The notes beneath the pieces were generated by a model. The model did not search any database. It saw only the letters and a program-made list of their open reading frames with translations, and was not told the DNA's origin. Positions 53,134 to 63,906 of a stretch of 64,000 nucleotides of DNA are shown here, in pieces. Position numbers and translations under genes: made by a program. Every line of letters starts with the position of its first letter. Position 1 is the stretch's first letter. Source of the DNA: Glycomyces salinus (GTDB lineage: Bacteria > Actinomycetota > Actinomycetes > Mycobacteriales > Micromonosporaceae); the NCBI RefSeq assembly GCF_016428645.1, contig NZ_JAELXW010000003.1, positions 1 to 64,000 of the forward strand. The letters are read 5' to 3'.

Positions 53134-53796
53134 CTAGGACAGCACGAAGCCGGCCGCGACCGCCAGCTCGCCGGCGATCTCGACGGCCTGGTCGGCGGTG
53201 ATGAGCGAGCCTTTGAGGCTCATCAGGCCTTGGACTCCGCCCAACTCCGAGCGCCGGAAGTCGCATCCGCGCGCATTGGAGACGCGAGTGAAGTCGGCGC
53301 CCGGGAACGTGCAGTCGATGAAGACGGCCTTCGAGAGGTCGCCGAGGAACGTCGCCTCGGCGAAACGGCACCGTTCGAACACGACCGGACCCTTGGCGGT
53401 GCCGATCGAGAACCCGGCGAAGTCGGCGCGGCAGTCGGCAACGTACACATCGCTCGCCAAGGAGAACTGCGCCTGCAGTCCGACCAGCTGGCAGTCGGTG
53501 ATCTCCAGCCGCCGCGCCGTCACCTGCTCCAGACGCGCGTTCGAGAGCACCGAGTGGTCGATGCCGGTGTCCACGATCTCCAGGGGAGACAGGACGGTCC
53601 CCGAGAAATCCGAGTTGCGGACGAGGCTCGACTCCAGAACGCCGTCCCCGATCCCCTCGGACCAGTCGACGCCGTCGAGCAGCCGCTCGCCGAACTCGAA
53701 ATCGTGGTCGAGCTCCTCGTCGAGCGCCTCCAACCGCTCGGCTTCGATGTCCGGGCTCCGCATGGACCGGTCTTCGTCGATCTTCCTGAACTTCAC
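53134..53796 (-). CDS. Pentapeptide-repeat-like protein
   Basis: 220 residues. A charged helical N-terminus (1-55) is followed by loosely repeating five-residue turns such as LVRNSDFSG, CRADFAGF, CRFAEATF, CTFPGADF and GCDFRRSEL, the right-handed beta-helix of pentapeptide proteins. GAGGAGG sits 4 nt before GTG 53796. Some members mimic DNA and protect gyrase from quinolones; nothing here proves that. Confidence 0.85.
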   Translation of the reverse strand: MKFRKIDEDRSMRSPDIEAERLEALDEELDHDFEFGERLLDGVDWSEGIGDGVLESSLVRNSDFSGTVLSPLEIVDTGIDHSVLSNARLEQVTARRLEITDCQLVGLQAQFSLASDVYVADCRADFAGFSIGTAKGPVVFERCRFAEATFLGDLSKAVFIDCTFPGADFTRVSNARGCDFRRSELGGVQGLMSLKGSLITADQAVEIAGELAVAAGFVLS

Positions 53797-53882
53797 GCGA
53801 CCTCCTCGACTGTGATCAGCCGAAGCCTAGGCCAGACCGCCGACATCCGCCGGGCGTGAGGTCCTCGCCGGGCACGAGGCCG

Positions 53883-55340
53883 TCAGTCGAGATTCCGCCT
53901 GCGTCGTGCCGCGAACATGACGACCGCGCCCACGGTCAGCAGGGCCCCGGCCACTATGGCGGGTACGACCAGCGAGGTTCCGGTGATGGGCAGTCCTCTG
54001 GTGGAGTAGTGGCTCCCGCCTGCGGCGTCCGTGCCGGTTGTGCCGTCACTAGTGGGTCCGTCAGACGTTGGACCTTCGCTCGTCGGCCCGTCGGAAGTCG
54101 GTCCATCGCTGGTGGGTCCGTCGGAAGTCGGCCCGTCGGAAGTCGGGCCATCTGAGGTCGGGTCGTCGCTGGTCGGCCCGTCGCTCGTCGGCGATTCGGA
54201 CGGGGTCGGGTCTACCTCGGTTTCGCAGCTCAGTTCCGCCGCGAACGGGAAGTGGTGCACCTCCCCGGAACTGGCGGCCGTCGTGCCGAGTACGGCGTTC
54301 GCCGCCACGATCTGGCCTTCGACGTTGGAGATGCTGAGGTCGGTGAAGTCGGCGTTCGGAGTGTAGACGCTGCCCTCGACGGTGTCGCCGCCCACGAGCG
54401 TCAGCTCGGCGGTGTCGCCGAAGTTCCACAGGATGTACGGCGCGTCCACCCCCGAGACCCCGGCCTGGCTCGCGACATCCCAATCGAGTACGCCATCGGT
54501 GGAGGAGGTGTCCACGTTGATCAGGATCGGCGTATCGGCCGTCGGCTTGTTGACGAAGGTCAGGTCCGACATGTTGTTGAGGTCGTCACCGGTCACGTTC
54601 AGGACGTTCGTCTCGCCCTCGGTCAGGGTGATGAATATCTGCCGACCCGGTTCGACCTCCCCTTTGGCGACCTCCGAGCCGCCTTCGCGGCTGTCGAACA
54701 TGGTCACGGTGTTCGCGCAGCCGGCGAGCAGCTCCGCGTCGGCCTTCATCTCGGAGAAGGCCGTGGCGAAGTCGATCGGCGAGGACTCCACGGTGTCGGC
54801 GGGCTGCCTCACGGTCAGTTCCACGCGCGGCGCCGAGTCGTATCCGGCCCCAGAGGGAACGAGCCGGGTCGGCTGGCTCGCTCCGTTGGCGTCGGTGGTC
54901 TCCACGTCGGTGCCGGTGAGATCGCCGACTTTCGCGTACCCGTTGCTGTTGAGCACCTGGGCCGTCCCGGCAGAGGTGCTCTGCTCCCAGTCGACGGAGC
55001 CGCCGACGACCAGAGAGCTCGGGTTCGTGTCGTCCCCGTCGTAGAAGGTGGCCCTGCTGTGGATGTCGATCCTGTACGGGCCCTGCACGGCCAGGTCGCC
55101 GCCCGTCGCGAGCGGGCCCTCCATCTCGCTCTCGGTCAGGACCGTGTCGCCCTCGATGAACGCGTTGAAGCCGAGCGCCGGTGAGAGCGGATCGACCGTC
55201 ACCTCCTGCGCGAGCGCCTGCGAGTTCATCATCGAGGCGGCCACCGCGATCGCCGTTGCGCCCACTGCGGCGCCGACGATGCCGGCGCGGGCGGCGAGTC
55301 TCCGATGGCGCGCGGTCATCGCGGCCGCTTGCTTCTTCAC
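53883..55340 (-). CDS. Choice-of-anchor A surface protein with LPxTG-type sorting signal
   Basis: About 485 residues. N-terminal signal peptide (KKQAAAMTARHRRLAARAG, then a hydrophobic run ending ALAQE), a choice-of-anchor A domain (LGFNAFIEGDTVLTESEMEGPLATGGDLAV), a stalk of about ten SDGPT repeats (54046-54195) and a C-terminal LPITG, hydrophobic helix and RRRR tail: a full sortase signal. It should be linked to the cell wall. GTG 55340 has AGGGGG 4 nt upstream; GTG 55364 is an alternative. No sortase gene is in the window. Confidence 0.87.
   Translation of the reverse strand: MKKQAAAMTARHRRLAARAGIVGAAVGATAIAVAASMMNSQALAQEVTVDPLSPALGFNAFIEGDTVLTESEMEGPLATGGDLAVQGPYRIDIHSRATFYDGDDTNPSSLVVGGSVDWEQSTSAGTAQVLNSNGYAKVGDLTGTDVETTDANGASQPTRLVPSGAGYDSAPRVELTVRQPADTVESSPIDFATAFSEMKADAELLAGCANTVTMFDSREGGSEVAKGEVEPGRQIFITLTEGETNVLNVTGDDLNNMSDLTFVNKPTADTPILINVDTSSTDGVLDWDVASQAGVSGVDAPYILWNFGDTAELTLVGGDTVEGSVYTPNADFTDLSISNVEGQIVAANAVLGTTAASSGEVHHFPFAAELSCETEVDPTPSESPTSDGPTSDDPTSDGPTSDGPTSDGPTSDGPTSDGPTSEGPTSDGPTSDGTTGTDAAGGSHYSTRGLPITGTSLVVPAIVAGALLTVGAVVMFAARRRRNLD
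54046..54195. repeat. 15-bp tandem repeats encoding the SDGPT stalk
   Basis: About ten imperfect 15-bp units encode (S-D/E-G/D-P-T)n on the minus strand. Third-position differences between units show the array is not a recent pure expansion. Length variation between strains is likely. Confidence 0.85.
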
Positions 55341-55449
55341 AGGTCCCCCTAATCGGACTATCACTTCAGGCAGGGGGAGCGCAGACCATATTAGAGGCGT
55401 TCCGGAAGTTTTTCGGCGGACCGGCGGTGTTGCGCCGAAATTCGTTCGG

Positions 55450-56514
55450 TCAAGCCGGGCGGCAGTCGGCCCAGACCTCCTCCGGATAGTCGAACTCGAA
55501 CCGCCCGCCGGGCAGGAGCACGGGCTCCAGGCCCGCCAGGTCGATCGCGCAGTAGGCCGAGAACGGACCCTCTTCGTCCTCGAAGAGGTCGTAGGCCGTG
55601 GCCGTCAGGTGGACGCGGCCGGGCTCGACGGTCTCCACGGTGTACGAGCCGCCGTAGGCCGGATTCGTCGCGAACCGCACCCGCGGGTAGACGTCGACCT
55701 CCCAGGCAAGGTCGGTCGGGTCGAGGTAGTCGTCGGCGCCGTCGGTCAGGCCCCAGTCGGTCTCGGCCGAGAACGGGCAGCCCGCGGGGGACGGATCGGC
55801 GTTCTGGGCGCACACGTCGATCCAGTCGGCCAGGTCGGCGTTCAGCCGCTCCTCGACCGCGTCGTCGCCGATCAGGGCCTCGGCGAGCACCGGATCGAAG
55901 GAGTTCGCGAGCCCCGTGCGCTCGTTCGGCGCAGCCAGGAAGACCGGGGGCTCCGGATCGGACAGCAGGTCGTTGCTCTCGCCGATGGTGTAAGCGCCCG
56001 GGAACAGGGCGAACTCGGTGACGCCGGATTCGCCGGAGGAGGTTGGCTCCGCGGCGTGCCCGTTGAGCTCGAGTTCCGAGAGCCCGAAGCCGCCTCCGCC
56101 GCCTCGGGGCGTCATCGACAGGTGCGCGTACGGGTTGGTGATCAGGGCCTCGTCCTCGGACACCTCGAGTTGGAAGACCGCCTCGGCACTCTGGCCGCCC
56201 GCGGTGATCTGGGCGTGGACGCGGGTCCGCGAACGCGTCGGCTGCTCCACTGTGAACTCCCAGTCCGAGGACATGGCCTCGGCCGTCAGCCACGAGCTGT
56301 CGGCGGTCGAGTCGGGCTCGCGGATGTATTCGCGGGCCAGGTCGACGTCGCCGTCCCGCAGCGCGTCGAGGTAGGCGGTGACGACGTCGACCGGTTCGGT
56401 GTCGCCGTCGAGGGCGAGCACGGGCACGCCGATCGCCGCCACGAGGGCCGCCAGGACCGCCTCGGTCAAGATCGACCAGCGCCGGGGCCGGGCCCAGGCC
56501 AGGACGCGTCTCAT
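55450..56514 (-). CDS. Membrane-anchored four-cysteine protein, paralog 1
   Basis: 354 residues. Basic N-terminus (RRVLAWARPRRW), one membrane helix (about 15-35), an NTF2/DUF4878-like domain (VVTAYLDALRDGDVDLAREYI), a LFPGAYTIG motif and then C-x10-C-P-F (VCAQ...AGCPF). It has exactly four Cys, the third in a late strand (AYCAIDL) and the fourth four residues from the end (DCRPA). Two neighbouring genes (56511-57566 and 59313-60446) share all of this. ATG 56514 overlaps the upstream paralog's stop by 4 bp. Function unknown; the Cys probably form two disulfides outside the cell. Confidence 0.75.
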   Translation of the reverse strand: MRRVLAWARPRRWSILTEAVLAALVAAIGVPVLALDGDTEPVDVVTAYLDALRDGDVDLAREYIREPDSTADSSWLTAEAMSSDWEFTVEQPTRSRTRVHAQITAGGQSAEAVFQLEVSEDEALITNPYAHLSMTPRGGGGGFGLSELELNGHAAEPTSSGESGVTEFALFPGAYTIGESNDLLSDPEPPVFLAAPNERTGLANSFDPVLAEALIGDDAVEERLNADLADWIDVCAQNADPSPAGCPFSAETDWGLTDGADDYLDPTDLAWEVDVYPRVRFATNPAYGGSYTVETVEPGRVHLTATAYDLFEDEEGPFSAYCAIDLAGLEPVLLPGGRFEFDYPEEVWADCRPA

Positions 56515-57566
56515 GCGGTCCCCCTGCAGCTGTCGGTCTCGGGCGTGCCGAGCGGGGCGAGTCCGACCTCGTCGTCGCCTGAGAGGACCACGAGCAGTTC
56601 GCTGCCGACGAAGCGGCACGGCGTGGTGAACTCGATCCACTCGTCCCGGTCCTCGGTGCCGGTGCCGTGCAGTTCGAGCCGGCCCGGCTCGGTGAACCGC
56701 AATTGGAGCAGGTTCTGTCCGACCAGTTCGGGGTCGGCCTCGACGACGGCCGCCAGCGGGTATTCGACGAGGGTCCACTCGATGTCCTCGAGCTCCTCGA
56801 GCCGCTGGCCCTCGGGGGTGTCGACGTAGCCGTCGGTCGAGAAGGGGCACCCGGGCGGGGCCTGGAGGCGGTATTCCAGGCAGCGGTCGATCAACTCGTT
56901 GACCCGCGTCTGCACCGCCATCGCCTGTTCGGGAGTCGGCTCCGGGGCCGGGGGACTGACCGTGATCGCCTCGCCGTCGGCGTGGGCCTCCAGCACCGCG
57001 GTCGGTTCGCCGCCGTAGAACCGGTACACCCCTGGCAGCAGCTCGTAGGTCCACGGCTGGCCGACCAGCGTGGTGAGCATGTCGGTCGAGGTGCGGTCGT
57101 CGACCCGCTCCCCGATCCGGACGCTCAGCTGCGAGCCGGGCGTGACGGCGACCTTGACCAGTGGATCGGACAGGACCAGCTCCTCGTCGAAGCCCTCCCG
57201 GACCGTGAAATGCCCGACCGCGGTGCCGCCGTCCCGCCCGATCGTGGCCGTGACGTCGGTCTCCGAGGAGTAGCGGCCCTCCCGCTCGGTCACCTCGAGC
57301 ACGTCCCAGCCGCCGTCGATCGCGTCCGGGTGCAGGAACGCCGCCGCCTCGCCGGTCGGGACGCTCGCGTCGGTGTAGCTCAGCGCCCGGTCGACCTCGC
57401 CCTCGCTCACCGCTTCGAGGAACGCCGCGACCAGCTCCGAAGGGCTGTCGGGCTCGTCGACGCCGTTCCAGACGGCGATAGGCACGAGCGAGAGGAGCGA
57501 GAACAGCACCACCCAGCCCAGGCGAGCGCTCTCGCGGCGGCTTCTCGGTATACCGGGATCGGGCAT
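56511..57566 (-). CDS. Membrane-anchored four-cysteine protein, paralog 2
   Basis: 351 residues. Helix at about 19-38, the NTF2-like opening LVAAFLEAVSEGEVDRALSYT, motif LLPGVYRFYGG, then RCLEYRLQAPPGCPF (C-x10-C-P-F), a third Cys in FTTPCRFVG and a fourth five residues from the end (SCRGTA). No other Cys. ATG 57566 is preferred with GAGG upstream; GTG 57575 is an alternative. Operon with paralog 1 (ATGA overlap), divergent from the propeller gene. Confidence 0.75.
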   Translation of the reverse strand: MPDPGIPRSRRESARLGWVVLFSLLSLVPIAVWNGVDEPDSPSELVAAFLEAVSEGEVDRALSYTDASVPTGEAAAFLHPDAIDGGWDVLEVTEREGRYSSETDVTATIGRDGGTAVGHFTVREGFDEELVLSDPLVKVAVTPGSQLSVRIGERVDDRTSTDMLTTLVGQPWTYELLPGVYRFYGGEPTAVLEAHADGEAITVSPPAPEPTPEQAMAVQTRVNELIDRCLEYRLQAPPGCPFSTDGYVDTPEGQRLEELEDIEWTLVEYPLAAVVEADPELVGQNLLQLRFTEPGRLELHGTGTEDRDEWIEFTTPCRFVGSELLVVLSGDDEVGLAPLGTPETDSCRGTA

Positions 57567-57680
57567 GTCGGGCACCTCGGGCTCGGGGGCGGGGATCTGC
57601 TGCCGATGCTAGAGCGGCCCCGCAATATTGACGGGTCCGACTATGGTTCGGAATCGGAACCGCCGATCCGGGAGGAATCG

Positions 57681-59156
57681 ATGAGCGAGGAGCGACCTTG
57701 GGGCCTGTGGCCGGAGCTGCGCAGCTGGCCCGTGCCGGTCCAGATCGGTGCCGGCGCGCTGGCGCTCGCCATGATCGGTACCTCCTTCGCGCTGCCGGAG
57801 CTGGTCGGGCACGGCGACGTCGACGAATCGGACTGGCCGGACGGGGAGCTGCCCGCCGCGGAGGGGGCCATAGCCGCCGAAGCGGAGTCCGGAGGCTCCC
57901 CCGGCTCCGACGAATCGGCCCCCGACGGCGTCGAGCCCTATGGCGGCGATCCGCTGTGGTCGACGGAGCTGGGGACGGACGGCGGCACGGTCGTGCACCT
58001 CGACCAGGGGGCCCTGTTCCTCACCGACGAGGGGCTGCGCCTGGAGGACGGCGGCGAGAGGGTGTGGGAGCATCCCGTCGAGGAGTTCGGGCCCGAGGTC
58101 GGCGTGGCCGACGAGGTGGTGGTCGTCTCGGTCTCGATCGACAGCCTCTTCGAGGACGAGGACTACGAGTGGCCCGGCCGCGAGGACACCGTGGCGCTCG
58201 ACCTGGAGACCGGCGAAGAGGTCTGGCGCGACCAGGACGCCTCGTTCGTGTCGGTCTACTCCGACGCGGTCCTGATGACCGAGTGCACCGGCGAGCAGGA
58301 CGGGAACATCGGCGACTGCATCCTCTACGCGCGCGACCCACAGAACCTGGCGACCCTGTGGTCGACGCCCACCTACGCCAGCGCCCAGGCCGTCGGCGGC
58401 GGCACCTGGACCGGGGAGCCGGTGCCCGACCCGCTCCTGATCGAGTCCTACCCGAACGGCCACGAGGACCGGACGGTCACCGCCTACGAGGACGGGAACG
58501 CGCTGGCGAGCGTCCAGACCCACGACGGCTCCTTCGTCGCCGGGGACACGCTGGTCTTCTACGACGACTACGACGACAACCCCGCCGACGAGTGCACCGC
58601 GACCCTGACCGGCTACGGCCTGCGCGGCGGCGAACGGCTCTGGCAGATCGAGGCCGAGACCGCCAAGACCGAGGACCTGGTCAGCTGCGGCGGACTGGCC
58701 ACCGTCCGGCCGCGCGACGGGATGCTGCCGCTGACCATCGGCGGCGAGGCCGCCCTGGTCGACCTCGCGACCGGCGAGACCGCCTGGACCGCGCCCGAGG
58801 CCGGGCGCGCAGTCGGGCTCGGCCCAGGAGCCGACGTGCTGGCGGTCGCCGTCGAAGGCGAGACCGACAACCTGGTCGCCTACGACGTCGAGTCCGGGGA
58901 CGAACTGTGGACGGCCACCGCCTCGATCGGCGCCTCGACCCGGACCTCCGCGGTCGGGTCCACGCTGTGGGTCCACGGCTCGGCGAGCATGTGGGGCTGG
59001 AGCGACTACGGCGTGGTCGCCTACAACCTGGAGACCGGCGAGGGCCTGGCCCTGCCGGGGTCCGCCAAGGAGTTCCGGCCCGGCCAGATCGTCACCGTCC
59101 TCGACGACATCGACAGGACCACCCTCAGCGCCTGGCCAGCCGACCTGTGGGGCTGA
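57681..59156 (+). CDS. Membrane-anchored PQQ-like beta-propeller protein
   Basis: 491 residues. A single helix (about 20-38) follows a short Trp-rich N-terminus, then an acidic linker and propeller repeats (ALDLETGEEVWRDQD, LVDLATGETAWTAPE, AYDVESGDELWTATA, AYNLETGEGLAL). Four Cys lie in two pairs of loops (TECTG..GDCILY, DECTATL, VSCGGLA). GGGAGG sits 6 nt before ATG 57681. It is flanked on both sides by the four-cysteine paralogs, suggesting a shared envelope function (inference). Confidence 0.83.
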   Translation: MSEERPWGLWPELRSWPVPVQIGAGALALAMIGTSFALPELVGHGDVDESDWPDGELPAAEGAIAAEAESGGSPGSDESAPDGVEPYGGDPLWSTELGTDGGTVVHLDQGALFLTDEGLRLEDGGERVWEHPVEEFGPEVGVADEVVVVSVSIDSLFEDEDYEWPGREDTVALDLETGEEVWRDQDASFVSVYSDAVLMTECTGEQDGNIGDCILYARDPQNLATLWSTPTYASAQAVGGGTWTGEPVPDPLLIESYPNGHEDRTVTAYEDGNALASVQTHDGSFVAGDTLVFYDDYDDNPADECTATLTGYGLRGGERLWQIEAETAKTEDLVSCGGLATVRPRDGMLPLTIGGEAALVDLATGETAWTAPEAGRAVGLGPGADVLAVAVEGETDNLVAYDVESGDELWTATASIGASTRTSAVGSTLWVHGSASMWGWSDYGVVAYNLETGEGLALPGSAKEFRPGQIVTVLDDIDRTTLSAWPADLWG

Positions 59157-59162
59157 CCGGGC

Positions 59163-59250
59163 TCATTCCTCGGCCAGGACCTTGAGCACGACCGGGCGGG
59201 ACAGGGTGCCGGCGACCCGGCGGGCGAGTGTCAGGTCGACGCGCCGCTAC
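59163..59250 (-). pseudogene. Possible 3' remnant of a lost gene
   Basis: The minus strand reads RRVDLTLARRVAGTLSRPV then VLKVLAEE and a stop, about 27 residues of good codon quality with a TAG just before. No start or ribosome site. It may be the tail of a gene cut away when the surrounding genes were inserted. Weak evidence. Confidence 0.2.
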
Positions 59251-59312
59251 TGTTCAGGACAACGTCCCCGGACACCACACCTGGGCGAACTCTGATCGGG
59301 TCTGAATCCGGC

Positions 59313-60446
59313 TCACGGTTCGAAGCCGATGCAAGTGGTGTAGGGGACCTTCTCCATTCCGGAGGACTCATCGAAGGCGAACGCCACGGTCCCGTCCTCG
59401 GGCACCAGGGAGAGGCTCCAGATCGAGAAGTCGAACTCGCAGGTCGTCTCGAAGTCGACGCCGTCGCCATACATCACGGCGGTGAGCGTGTCTTCCGGGT
59501 TCACGGGTACCAGCGCGAACCCGTTTTCGGCCCAGGGAGACAAGACCATGATCTCGACCAGCGGGGTGGGGCCGGCGAGGCTCCACTCGGCTTCGTCGAA
59601 GTGCTCGACCGGACCTTCGTCGAGGTAGACGGGCGTTCCGTCGGGGATCCCGAACGGGCAGCCGGACGGATCGGGCTGCATAGCCTCCAAGCAGGCGGCG
59701 ATCCGCTCGTCGACGAGCTGCTGCACCGCCGCGTTCCCGTCGGGTCCGGCGAACGCGCCGTCGAACTTGTAGGGCTCGGTCGAGGAATAGGCGTTGAACA
59801 GGTACGCCGTCCTGGGCTCGGTTCGGTCCTCGATCCCGGGCCATTCGAGGTCCAAGATTCCGGGCACGTCCTGGTAGAAACGGTACGAGCCCGGGAAGAG
59901 CCAGAAGTGGTCCCGAGCGTCCCTCGGAGCGATCACATCGTTCACTTGGAGATAGTCGAGGGCATCGGGGACGCCCGACGTGTTCACCGCCACGAAGGGG
60001 TCCTGAAGTTCCCAGTCTCCGCTCGACTGGTTGCGCACGACGGTGTACTCGTACTCGAACATGCCATCGAGGGTCGAGAATTCCGCAGTCACGTCAATGG
60101 TGGCCTCGTCGCTGTGGGTGCGCTCGGTGCCGGTGAGTTCCCAGCCGCCGCCGAGGGCCTCGGGCGCCTGGAATTCTGACCGCGGTGCGTTGTCGAGACC
60201 GTCCGGTGAAATCAGTTCCAGTGCGGCCTCAGCGTCCTTGTCCCGCAACGCGGCGAAGAATTCCTTCACGACCACCTGGGCAGGGTGCTCGCGAACGGAG
60301 TACCAGGCCATCCCGGCCGCGACGATGGAGGCGACCGTGATCGCGACCGTCCAGAGAACACGGCGTCTGCGTCGATCGTGGTCACCGTCGATTCGGCCCG
60401 CTTCTTGCTCACCGACTCCCGTCGGTGCACTTGGGTCGCTGCTCAT
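59313..60446 (-). CDS. Membrane-anchored four-cysteine protein, paralog 3
   Basis: 377 residues. A longer basic N-terminus (DGDHDRRRRRV), helix at about 30-48, an NTF2-like start (VVVKEFFAALRDKDAEAALELI), LFPGSYRFYQD, then ACLEAMQPDPSGCPF (C-x10-C-P-F), a third Cys in TTCEFDFS and a fourth six residues from the end (TTCIGFEP). Exactly four Cys, in the same order as paralogs 1 and 2. Separated from them by the propeller gene. Function unknown. Confidence 0.75.
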   Translation of the reverse strand: MSSDPSAPTGVGEQEAGRIDGDHDRRRRRVLWTVAITVASIVAAGMAWYSVREHPAQVVVKEFFAALRDKDAEAALELISPDGLDNAPRSEFQAPEALGGGWELTGTERTHSDEATIDVTAEFSTLDGMFEYEYTVVRNQSSGDWELQDPFVAVNTSGVPDALDYLQVNDVIAPRDARDHFWLFPGSYRFYQDVPGILDLEWPGIEDRTEPRTAYLFNAYSSTEPYKFDGAFAGPDGNAAVQQLVDERIAACLEAMQPDPSGCPFGIPDGTPVYLDEGPVEHFDEAEWSLAGPTPLVEIMVLSPWAENGFALVPVNPEDTLTAVMYGDGVDFETTCEFDFSIWSLSLVPEDGTVAFAFDESSGMEKVPYTTCIGFEP

Positions 60447-60598
60447 GGCGTCTAGGCTCCTGGCGTGGGGTGTTCGACCCCATGCTAGGAAACGGACGCA
60501 AACCGCCGCAGGTGACGCCATCGGTCATCGATGAGCCGCGACAGGGCCATGAGAGAACGAGAACAGCGCCTGAACTGCGCCGAAGGTTGAGAATCGAA

Positions 60599-61744
60599 CT
60601 AGATGTACTGGCCGACCGGCTGCTGCGGGATCGCCGCCTCGGACACGGTCGGGTCGGTGCCGCCCCGCCGGGCGTACAGCTCGGCCAGCGTCATCGGCTC
60701 GCCGACCGCCTCCCCGCCCAGCCAGTCGCTCGACTCCTCGGGCGAGAGCGCGTCGACCTCGATCTGCGCCAGGCACCTGCCCGGCCGCACCACCGCCGGG
60801 TGGAGCCGGTCGAGCCGTTCGTTCGTGGTGATCGCGACCATGATCTCCCGGCCCTGGCCCAGCAGACCGTCGGTCAGGTTCAGCAGCCTGGCCAGGGACT
60901 GGCCCGAGGCCTCCTTGGCCTCGCCGCGGATCAGCTCGTCGCAGTCCTCGAGGATCATCAGCCGCCAGCCGTCGCCCCGCTGCGAATCCTCGCCCAGGTG
61001 CAGGTCCATCTCCGAGCCGATGATGACCTCCATCAGGTAGGAGGGGTCGGCGAAGAACGCCTCCGGGTCGAGCACCGTGTCCACCTGGCACCACTCGGCC
61101 CATTCGCGGGCCAGCGCGCGCAGCGCCGTGGTCTTGCCCGTCCCCGGCGGGCCGTGCAGGAGTACCAGGCGGCCGACCACGTCCGAGGGCTGGGTCGACA
61201 TGAGCTTGCCGAGCGCCGACCCGGCGTTCGAGGAGTAGTTCCGCTCGATCCCGCCCCAGTCTGGAGCCGTGATCGACCGCGTCGACCGGAATGGGCCCCG
61301 CGCCGACCGGTACCAGAACCCCATGTCCACCTTGTCGTCGCGTGGCTCCTCGGGCACTCCGGCCTGGTCGACCACGAACGAGGCGATCTCCTCGGCCCGC
61401 TCGCGGGTGGCGGCGGTCACCACCGCCTGGCCCGAGCCGTCCCGCCACCGCTGCGTCCGCAGCGTCCAGCCGTCCCCGCGCACCAATTGCAGGAACGACG
61501 AGCCGGAGATCGAGCGCACCAGTTCCCCGCCCTCGGGGATCAGCTCGAGATCGTCGCCGACCGCCTCCAGCGCGCGGACCACCGCGTGCGGCTGCGTCCC
61601 GGCCAGATAGGCGTCCAGGCTCATGAGGTTGAGCACGTTCGACGGGTCGTCCGATCCGTCGAGCGTGAAGTGCATGTTCCCGAGCGAGCCGCCCGTGCCC
61701 TGCAGCAGATTCATGATGTCACCGCGCTGTTCGATGATTCCCAT
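60599..61744 (-). CDS. AAA ATPase, DUF5925 family
   Basis: 381 residues. An N-terminal DUF5925-like domain (about 1-150) is followed by an AAA core with Walker A LLHGPPGTGKTTALRAL, Walker B LMILEDCDELI and sensor region VAITTNERLDRLHPAVVRPGRC. Cytoplasmic. Actinobacterial relatives are uncharacterised. Divergent from the CopD-CtaG gene. Confidence 0.85.
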   Translation of the reverse strand: MGIIEQRGDIMNLLQGTGGSLGNMHFTLDGSDDPSNVLNLMSLDAYLAGTQPHAVVRALEAVGDDLELIPEGGELVRSISGSSFLQLVRGDGWTLRTQRWRDGSGQAVVTAATRERAEEIASFVVDQAGVPEEPRDDKVDMGFWYRSARGPFRSTRSITAPDWGGIERNYSSNAGSALGKLMSTQPSDVVGRLVLLHGPPGTGKTTALRALAREWAEWCQVDTVLDPEAFFADPSYLMEVIIGSEMDLHLGEDSQRGDGWRLMILEDCDELIRGEAKEASGQSLARLLNLTDGLLGQGREIMVAITTNERLDRLHPAVVRPGRCLAQIEVDALSPEESSDWLGGEAVGEPMTLAELYARRGGTDPTVSEAAIPQQPVGQYI

Positions 61745-61863
61745 TGCGTTCCAGCCTGCCTTACCCCCCTGACACGCCGGCTGCCCGGGCCAATGGGCCT
61801 CGCCAGGGAGTCCTATGAGATGAACGGCCCCACCCGGTGGGGCGTGAGCTGGAGCATTCAGCC

Positions 61864-63906
61864 ATGCTGGGGTACGTGACCACGTCGACCGAGACCAGCG
61901 AAAACACCGCCGTCACCATACCCGATCCGGCTTCGCGCGGGCGCTCGGGATGGCGTGCGGCCGCGGTGCTGGCGGCGGTCGCGGCGGGCGCTGTCGCGGC
62001 CGTCATCGCGCTCGACGCCGGCGGGGCGATCCAACTGGAGGCCATCCCCGGTCTCAGCGCCGCCGACCCGGCCGTGACGTGGGCGGCCGGCCTGCTCAAG
62101 TACGCCTACGACCTGCTGATGCTCGCCTCGGTCGGCTGCACGGTCGCGGCCGCGATCTTCCTTCCCGGACGCGCCGAGGACCGCTCCAGGCTCTCGGCCC
62201 AGGCGTGGCGGTGGCTGCGGATCGGCTCGGTCGCGACCGGCCTGTGGGCCCTGGTCGCGCTCGTGCGGGTTCCGGTCGAATACGCCAACACCTTCGCGCT
62301 CGGATTCGACGACCTCACTCTTTCGGGTGCATGGTCGTACCTGACCCAAGCCGATCAGGGGACGAGCCTGGGAGCGACCGCGGCCTTGGCGCTCGCGGCC
62401 GCGGTCGTCGCGGCCCGCTCCTTCAAGGTCTCCTGGGCCGCCGCTGCCGCCGCGGCGGCGATCGGGGCGGCGCTGCCCCCGATCTTCACCGGCCACTCGG
62501 CGGCCAACGGCAACCACCAGATCGCCGTCGACGGCCTCATCATCCACGTCGTGGCCGCCTGCTTCTGGGCAGGCGGGCTGCTGGCGCTGTTCATCGCCCG
62601 CGCCGACCCGGCCGTGGCGGTGCGCCGGTACTCGGCCGCGGCCGCCTTCGCCTACCCGGCGGTCGGGGCCAGCGGCCTGATCGTGTTCGGGGCCAACGTC
62701 GACTTCTCCGACCTGTGGACCTCCGACTACGGGCGCATCGCGCTGGCCAAGGCGGCGCTGCTGGCGGTCGGCGGCCTCATCGGCTGGGCGCACCGGAGGC
62801 GCACCATCCCGGCGGTGAACGCCGGGGACCGGCGGGCCTTCTGGCGCCTGGCCGCGGTCGAGCTGGCGGTCATGGCCGTCGCGTTCGGCCTGGCCGCGTC
62901 CCTGTCGGTGACCCCGCCGCCCTCCGGCGAGCTGCCCGACCCGAACGCGGCATTCCTCGGGTTCGCCACGCCGGGCCCGATCACGTTCTCCTCGCTGATG
63001 CTCGACTGGTACCCGGCGGTGCTGGTGTGCACCGCTGCGGCGTTCGGCGTGGGCTTCTACATCGCCGGGGTGGTGCGGCTGCGGCGCCGCGGCGACGCCT
63101 GGCCGTGGATCCGGACGGCCATGTGGATCGCCGGGTGGGCGGTGGTGGTCCTGGTGACCTCGACCGGACTGGGCAAGTACGGACTGGTCCTGTTCAGCGC
63201 CCACATGGTCCAGCACATGGCCCTGAACATGCTCGCGCCGGTGTTCCTGGTCCTCGGCGCGCCGGTCACGCTCGCGCTGCGCGCGATCCGGCCGCGGCGC
63301 TCCGGCGGCCCCCGGGAGTGGCTGCTCGCGTTCGTCCACTCCCGCTTCGCCCGGCTCGTCTCCCACCCGGTCGTCGCCCTGGTCATCTACCTCACCAGCC
63401 TCTACATCATGTACTTCACCGGGATCTTCGAGTGGGCGATGAACTCCCATTTCGGGCACCTGCTGATGACCGGGCACTTCCTGGCCTCGGGGAGCCTGTT
63501 CTTCTGGATCGTCCTCGGCCCCGATCCCAAGCCGCGGCAGCTGTCGTACCCGGCGAAGGTGCTGCTGTACTTCGTGTCGATCGTCTTCCACGCCGTGTTC
63601 GGCCTGGCGCTGATGATGGGCACGGGCCTGATCGCCGAGACCTGGTACACCGGCCTGGCCGTCCCGTGGGTCGGCGACCTGCTGGCCGACCAGCGCACCG
63701 GCGGCGGCATCGCTTGGGCGTTCGGGGAGATCCCCAGCCTGATCATCATCGCCGTCCTCATCGGGCAGTGGACCCGCGCCGACGAGCGCGAAGGGCGCCG
63801 CCTCGACCGCATGGCCGAGCGGGCCAGCGCCTCCGGCCACCCCGAGGACGACCCCCACGAGGTCTACAACGCGTACCTGGCGAGCCTCGACCAGGAACGG
63901 CGCTGA
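61864..63906 (+). CDS. CopD-CtaG fusion: copper transport / cytochrome oxidase assembly membrane protein
   Basis: About 680 residues with about 15 membrane helices. The N-terminal half is CopD-like (VDGLIIHVVAACFWAGGLLALFIAR). The C-terminal half is caa3_CtaG (LFSAHMVQHMALNMLAPVFLVLGAP, LLMTGHFLASGSLFFWIVLGPDP) with His residues expected to bind copper. Such fusions supply copper for cytochrome c oxidase assembly in actinobacteria. Start uncertain: ATG 61864 or GTG 61876; no good ribosome site before either. Confidence 0.88.
   Translation: MLGYVTTSTETSENTAVTIPDPASRGRSGWRAAAVLAAVAAGAVAAVIALDAGGAIQLEAIPGLSAADPAVTWAAGLLKYAYDLLMLASVGCTVAAAIFLPGRAEDRSRLSAQAWRWLRIGSVATGLWALVALVRVPVEYANTFALGFDDLTLSGAWSYLTQADQGTSLGATAALALAAAVVAARSFKVSWAAAAAAAAIGAALPPIFTGHSAANGNHQIAVDGLIIHVVAACFWAGGLLALFIARADPAVAVRRYSAAAAFAYPAVGASGLIVFGANVDFSDLWTSDYGRIALAKAALLAVGGLIGWAHRRRTIPAVNAGDRRAFWRLAAVELAVMAVAFGLAASLSVTPPPSGELPDPNAAFLGFATPGPITFSSLMLDWYPAVLVCTAAAFGVGFYIAGVVRLRRRGDAWPWIRTAMWIAGWAVVVLVTSTGLGKYGLVLFSAHMVQHMALNMLAPVFLVLGAPVTLALRAIRPRRSGGPREWLLAFVHSRFARLVSHPVVALVIYLTSLYIMYFTGIFEWAMNSHFGHLLMTGHFLASGSLFFWIVLGPDPKPRQLSYPAKVLLYFVSIVFHAVFGLALMMGTGLIAETWYTGLAVPWVGDLLADQRTGGGIAWAFGEIPSLIIIAVLIGQWTRADEREGRRLDRMAERASASGHPEDDPHEVYNAYLASLDQERR

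Follow-up and report, generated by a model that had tools for sequence, protein, structure and literature searches.

A conserved cysteine pair in a family of NTF2-like membrane proteins encoded beside divergent partner genes in Glycomyces

The 64,000-nucleotide window of Glycomyces salinus DNA analysed here (part of contig C135; genome of 5.37 Mb) contains three minus-strand genes, which we call A, B and C (Table 1), and these belong to a real family of NTF2-like membrane proteins that is absent from the libraries and literature we searched. No Pfam or NCBIfam model matched A, B or C at its cut-off (weak matches only, some of them NTF2-like), the family profile gave only weak matches against PDB sequences, and no description of the family was recognised in the titles and abstract starts of the open PubMed Central literature. 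The original prediction had placed three widely diverged paralogues of 351-377 residues here and held that they fit no described family; the genes lie where it put them, A and C are ~25% and ~30% identical to B, respectively, and the family indeed adds a membrane-protein group for which no curated model turned up in Pfam or NCBIfam.

Each of the three proteins has a short arginine-rich N-terminal tail and a single hydrophobic helix, followed by exactly four cysteines (Cys1 to Cys4). The motifs predicted to be shared are exact in all of them, namely an L(F/L)PG(A/V/S)Y stretch, Cys1-x10-Cys2-Pro-Phe, and a Cys4 positioned 4-6 residues from the C-terminal end. An alternative upstream in-frame start of C, at 60521, would add one extra Cys, N-terminal to the membrane helix. 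The same genome holds two further members of similar length, on contigs C159 and C9, the first of which carries C-x8-CPF.

The cysteine pattern across the family

With orthologues of B and A heading the profile (E 1e-10), we found the family in 21 of 22 Glycomyces genomes, with 1-9 matches each, some of which are pieces of one gene; at a looser limit, a single Glycomyces genome gave up to 12 matches. With a broad profile (E 1e-20), 92 of the 120 genomes sampled from the taxonomic family f22 and 25 of the 121 from f8 gave matches; the two are presumably Microbacteriaceae and Mycobacteriaceae in the broad sense, respectively. A sample of the phylum gave matches in 36/296 genomes at E 1e-8, many spanning the NTF2-like part only; matches covering that part alone were excluded from the member counts. 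The profile was seeded with four Cys-bearing proteins, a seed that Cys-less relatives could escape, and genes in the loci were called by a custom script, with approximate starts.

From 83 profile matches we retained 80 for alignment (62 from Glycomyces and 18 from outside the genus), dropping two short NTF2-only proteins and one C-terminal piece of B from a frame-split gene. A split of this kind was seen in G. xiaoerkulensis (L071:7266-10028, on the same contig as L131), where the halves of B lie in different frames, the gene being either broken or affected by an error in sequencing. Cys1 and Cys2 are kept in all 80 members, and, with each of the four places treated as a range of the alignment, every ectodomain Cys falls within one of them. 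The only residues common to all 80 are Cys1 and the Pro of PGxY; Cys2 sits off its main alignment column in three members, for which the spacing was recounted from their sequences. The distance between the two cysteines varies from 6 to 18 residues (x10 in 34 members, x8 in 22), and Pro-Phe follows Cys2 in 61/80.

A second survey took 40 of the 92 f22 genomes and 20 of the 25 f8 genomes, mostly the best-scoring ones. At these 60 loci the first pair was again present in every member (61/61; x10 in 47, x14 in 12, x9 in 2), and 60 members had no other Cys past the membrane helix, the remaining one having four close together. Since Cys makes up on average 0.85% of the proteins called in Glycomyces loci, ~2.8 would be expected per 330 residues at any position, while all ectodomain Cys of A, B and C fall in four fixed places, which argues that their placement is not due to chance. 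As judged from these alignments, strong constraint on the cysteine pattern is supported, in line with the selection that had been proposed, and the invariant Cys1-Cys2 pair provides a clean annotation signature for the family.

Two other elements of the original prediction apply to A, B and C but not to the family at large. The ten-residue spacing, described as invariant, is one of several, as already seen in the C159 paralogue, and the four-Cys signature gives way to the first pair alone in 16 of the 18 aligned non-Glycomyces relatives, as in the 60 further members above. Across the homologues surveyed, the first pair was always kept and the second often absent. The family is thus a two-Cys one whose four-Cys version belongs mainly to Glycomyces. 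Cys3 and Cys4 occur together in 63 of the 80 aligned members and are both missing from 16, with Cys3 alone in one. A quick unrooted tree, for which the Cys columns were left out, places these 16 members by themselves on one side of a well-supported branch, indicating a single gain or a single loss of the second pair. Two sequences on long branches, from lineages outside the window's own taxonomic family (L107 and L108), carry the second pair; one from another genus of that family (L109) is without it. This joint presence and absence, stemming from one evolutionary event, is consistent with and supports the predicted pairing of Cys1 with Cys2 and of Cys3 with Cys4. VKOR, of a disulfide-forming oxidase family, is encoded in all 22 Glycomyces genomes.

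Divergent partner genes and rates of divergence

A propeller gene had been noted among the three paralogues, and a comparison of gene neighbourhoods had been suggested for it. This comparison identified the propeller as a real partner gene: an A orthologue lies beside B in 9 further Glycomyces genomes, and in all ten genomes having B-A (the window and L063-L071) the propeller gene stands head-to-head with B. At the orthologue threshold of E 1e-80 (one orthologue scored 2.7e-90), matches were found in 10/10 genomes with B-A and in 0/12 Glycomyces genomes without it. The outer neighbours of the ten loci fall into at least four different sets, and besides the propeller, the only neighbour cluster common to all ten, no cluster is common to more than five of them. 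The encoded protein matches PF13360 at 51.9 bits (cut-off 27.6). Its own four Cys, in pairs spaced by x10 and about x30, are kept in 10 full-length sequences of the propeller cluster, one of which has a fifth; in an eleventh sequence, cut by a contig end, two are visible. The propeller partner is thus probably disulfide-bonded as well.

The start of A and the end of B share four bases, as expected for a co-translated pair. B and the propeller gene start divergently from the two sides of an intergenic stretch, which we infer to be a promoter region shared by the two, although a scan of 55300-60800 found no sigma-70-type promoters.

Facing a divergent partner is the usual arrangement in the genus. 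Among the 62 Glycomyces family genes, 34 face a gene of a second cluster, cl1, 20 face a propeller gene and 7 face something else, with one accompanied by a same-strand cl1 gene. Proteins of cl1 are mostly 250-305 residues long, begin with an N-terminal hydrophobic stretch and generally contain no Cys (30/34); a Pfam search with 13 of them gave two single weak matches, none meaningful. Three family genes alternate with cl1 partner genes at L078:5360-10451, and five occur with two cl1 genes among them at L073:7590-17591, arrays that point to local duplication of family genes. The conserved head-to-head partners make the function of the family directly testable.

A, B and the propeller diverge faster than other genes near the family loci. 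Mean identity within the genus is 49% for A, 54% for B and 57% for the propeller, as compared with 78% for CopD-CtaG, 86% for DUF5925-AAA, 93% for a glyS-like gene and 88% for cluster cl2, the sets of genomes differing between genes.

Table 1. Family genes and associated features of the window. pLDDT, predicted local distance difference test.
Feature	Coordinates	Strand	Length (aa)	Cys positions	Description	Model
Gene A	55450..56514	-	354	235/246/322/351	Membrane-anchored family member	
Gene B	56511..57566	-	351	229/240/317/347	Family member	AlphaFold2 mean pLDDT 86.5
Intergenic stretch	57567..57680				Between the head-to-head B and propeller genes; putative shared promoter region	
Propeller gene	57681..59156	+	491	202/213 and 305/336	N-terminal hydrophobic helix and PQQ-like beta-propeller	
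Gene C	59313..60446	-	377	252/263/336/372	Member of a different subfamily; no divergent partner	

Downstream of A, at 53883-55340, lies a gene whose product, putatively an ice-binding-like adhesin, matches PF20597 at 172 bits and carries an LPITG-like sorting end, and members of its cluster are also found near B-A in four other Glycomyces loci.

Predicted structure and proposed role

In the AlphaFold2 model of B (predicted template modelling score, pTM, 0.73; Table 1), a helix at residues 8-36 is followed by a region of helices and strands (42-141) and then by a strand module that spans residues 148-203 and contains PGxY (178-181). Next come a helix (212-230) that has Cys229 near its end and a coil with Cys240. 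The strands that follow run as far as residue 338; Cys317 lies where one of them ends, and Cys347 belongs to the tail. The model suggests a single-pass protein with a short inside tail, an NTF2-like domain, the PGxY strand module and a C-terminal alpha/beta part, and so agrees with the anchor and fold that had been proposed, with a weak fold match. The N-terminal, membrane-proximal part looks NTF2-like: Foldseek places TcpC first, then OrfG and then many NTF2-like chains, and among the 50 matches listed most of the high-probability ones are NTF2-like, with single-domain E-values of 0.04 or higher and TM-scores of at most about 0.5 of the target. For the model beyond this part, Foldseek gave no clear match in the PDB.

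We propose that Cys1 and Cys2 form an ancestral disulfide closing a loop behind the helix of the C-terminal part, and that Cys3 and Cys4 would form a second disulfide tethering the C-terminus, gained or lost once, both serving as structural staples and not as reactive sites. B and A, made together, would join the divergently encoded propeller in one fast-evolving complex on the outer face, which would recognise an envelope or external ligand, and the paralogues would act likewise with cl1 as partner. To this proposal as a whole we give a probability of roughly 0.5. Its weakest step, recognition of a ligand, is one that we purely infer; it leans on PMC3924330, where NTF2-like families other than this one are proposed to recognise small molecules outside the cell.

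TcpC and OrfG are VirB8-like proteins, and their place at the head of the Foldseek list raises another reading, in which NTF2 domains of this kind hold together an envelope-spanning transport or secretion machine and recognise no ligand. Yet the fold match is weak, the Pfam-annotated window genes at 53134-63906 include no secretion or conjugation annotation, B and one f22 member match no plasmid record, and the propeller is the only neighbour cluster shared by more than five of the ten B-A loci (the neighbours at the other nine were clustered and are mostly unannotated). We therefore regard an assembly scaffold as unlikely.

Members outside Glycomyces have other neighbours. At 40 f22 loci (L199-L238), a PIF1-like helicase gene lies divergent to the family gene (immediately adjacent in 35), and a CopD-CtaG fusion gene is convergent with it (in the stretch in 31, immediately adjacent in 28). 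Other clusters at these loci are HU (25 of 40), S14 (22), L28-like (17), L33-like (16), beta-lactamase-family (13), FUR-family (12) and ABC-3 (12), one member of each having been identified with Pfam, except for L28 and L33, which were assigned by sequence reading. In f8, three family genes precede moxR at L113:5400-9961, and a single one precedes it at L114:6911-10154, with a four-base overlap.

The beta-lactamase-family cluster, whose tested member (PF00144) belongs to a wall-transpeptidase superfamily, bears on the idea that the family regulates or adapts a cell-wall enzyme. Such a role is proposed in section 9 of PMC3924330 for other NTF2-like families, those with extracellular domains found with NlpC/P60 enzymes, and PDB chains of PBP5/PBP2a match the family profile weakly in their N-terminal part (E 0.0046 or worse). 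That cluster is present, however, in a minority of the f22 loci, and no such gene was seen beside the Glycomyces members, whose neighbours are only partly annotated. We rank this reading below the scaffold and think it quite unlikely.

The metal-related genes at f22 loci (CopD-CtaG fusion, FUR-family and ABC-3 metal transport, together with HU and ribosomal protein genes) could instead mean that the cysteines are functional, serving thiol-disulfide exchange or a copper or zinc site for metal handling in the envelope. The window's module is likewise near a CopD-CtaG gene (61864-63906), and ribosomal protein genes lie close to the C-x8 paralogues of Glycomyces, accompanied by Zur-box-like dyads (sequence TGAAAACGATTGTCA or closely similar) that were found in 13 of the 19 stretches scanned. 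Against this, no additional Cys is conserved, and a Cys1-Cys2 spacing that varies so widely is unlike a catalytic CxxC; the C-x2-C site of thioredoxin and Dsb proteins was not found among the 80 members, and A, B and C have no such Pfam match. Conserved gene order may, moreover, be old synteny, and the dyads mapped at L080, L083 and L090 lie between ribosomal protein genes and a CobW-like gene, away from the family gene, with none in the window stretch scanned. Zinc regulation, considered as an explanation for the family as a whole, was rejected on account of these dyad positions. The CopD-CtaG, ribosomal and dyad context is thus either old synteny or a weak metal lead, and functional cysteines seem to us improbable, the least probable of the readings considered here.

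Adjoining the ribosomal protein genes (read as S14-, L33- and L28-like) is a small gene cluster, cl9, found at 15 Glycomyces loci (including L083:7825-8016 and L088:5991-6182). Its products are 53-95 residues long and end in ...ITHT...W(I/V)DC(x)CVI, and they could be a zinc chaperone or a peptide precursor.

Several observations weigh against the proposed disulfide-stapled B-A-propeller complex. Neither kind of partner stands opposite seven of the 62 Glycomyces family genes; no divergent partner accompanies gene C or its closest relative, which is in G013; and the f22 loci differ in their neighbours from those of Glycomyces. The parallel divergence of B and the propeller (r 0.91) is confounded by the species tree. 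Weaker propeller relatives do occur in two genomes without B-A: the one in G014 is a C-terminal piece at 47% identity (4e-30), and the other, in G010, is full-length but distant (28% identity, 5e-27) and stands opposite another family gene. The joint change of Cys3 and Cys4 is a single event on the tree and hence one informative pair, with weak statistics and no statistical backing for its phylogenetic independence, and an orthologue of A in Glycomyces sp. NRRL B-16210 (L128:9048-10079) keeps Cys3 but has Ser at Cys4 and ends in ...NTSV. As for structure, the best PDB match of the B model, TcpC (3ub1), has an E-value of 6e-4 and a root-mean-square deviation of 21.9, and the model of C (pLDDT 67.8) was too weak for a structure search.

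A broader reading extends the proposed complex to modular surface recognition that duplicates within Glycomyces, in which a stapled NTF2-like anchor and a head-to-head propeller or cl1 gene would form units that are copied, diverge fast and swap partners. Copying, fast divergence and partner swapping would be expected if the ligands change, as do the surfaces of rivals, kin or phages. The copy number behind this reading is up to about a dozen profile matches per genome, some of them pieces, and we find it doubtful, placing it after the cell-wall role and ahead of functional cysteines.

Comparison with known systems

The propeller partner resembles BamB and other PQQ-like propellers in its propeller repeats, as captured by PF13360. 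It differs from BamB in its score against the NCBIfam model TIGR03300 (19.2 bits, cut-off 285), in its actinomycete host and in its two conserved Cys pairs. B has NTF2-like domains in common with the VirB8-like TcpC and OrfG, but differs from them in that even the best match superposes poorly, and the context of conjugation or type IV secretion is missing as far as annotation reaches, with no conjugation gene in the annotated part of the window and the other loci mostly unannotated. TcaA/YvbJ-like proteins were considered for their layout; a search with 18 members at E 0.1 listed 14 families, none of them TcaA-named, and included no direct profile comparison.

Closer likenesses come from the NTF2-like part. 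The Rv0361 family model (NCBIfam NF051431), which spans only about 140 residues, is passed at its 37-bit cut-off by 2 of 10 distant members over this part; at E up to 1 it is listed for none of A, B and C. The extracellular NTF2-like domains DUF4878 (PF12870), DUF4829 (PF16111) and SnoaL_2 have the same membrane-proximal, extracytoplasmic fold and give weak matches in B and C, all under the curated cut-offs and confined to the N-terminal part of the ectodomain; DUF4878, for example, matches B at 11.8 bits (gathering cut-off 24.1), with A and C not listed at E up to 1. In PMC3924330, DUF4878 and two other such domains are considered likely extracellular ligand binders.

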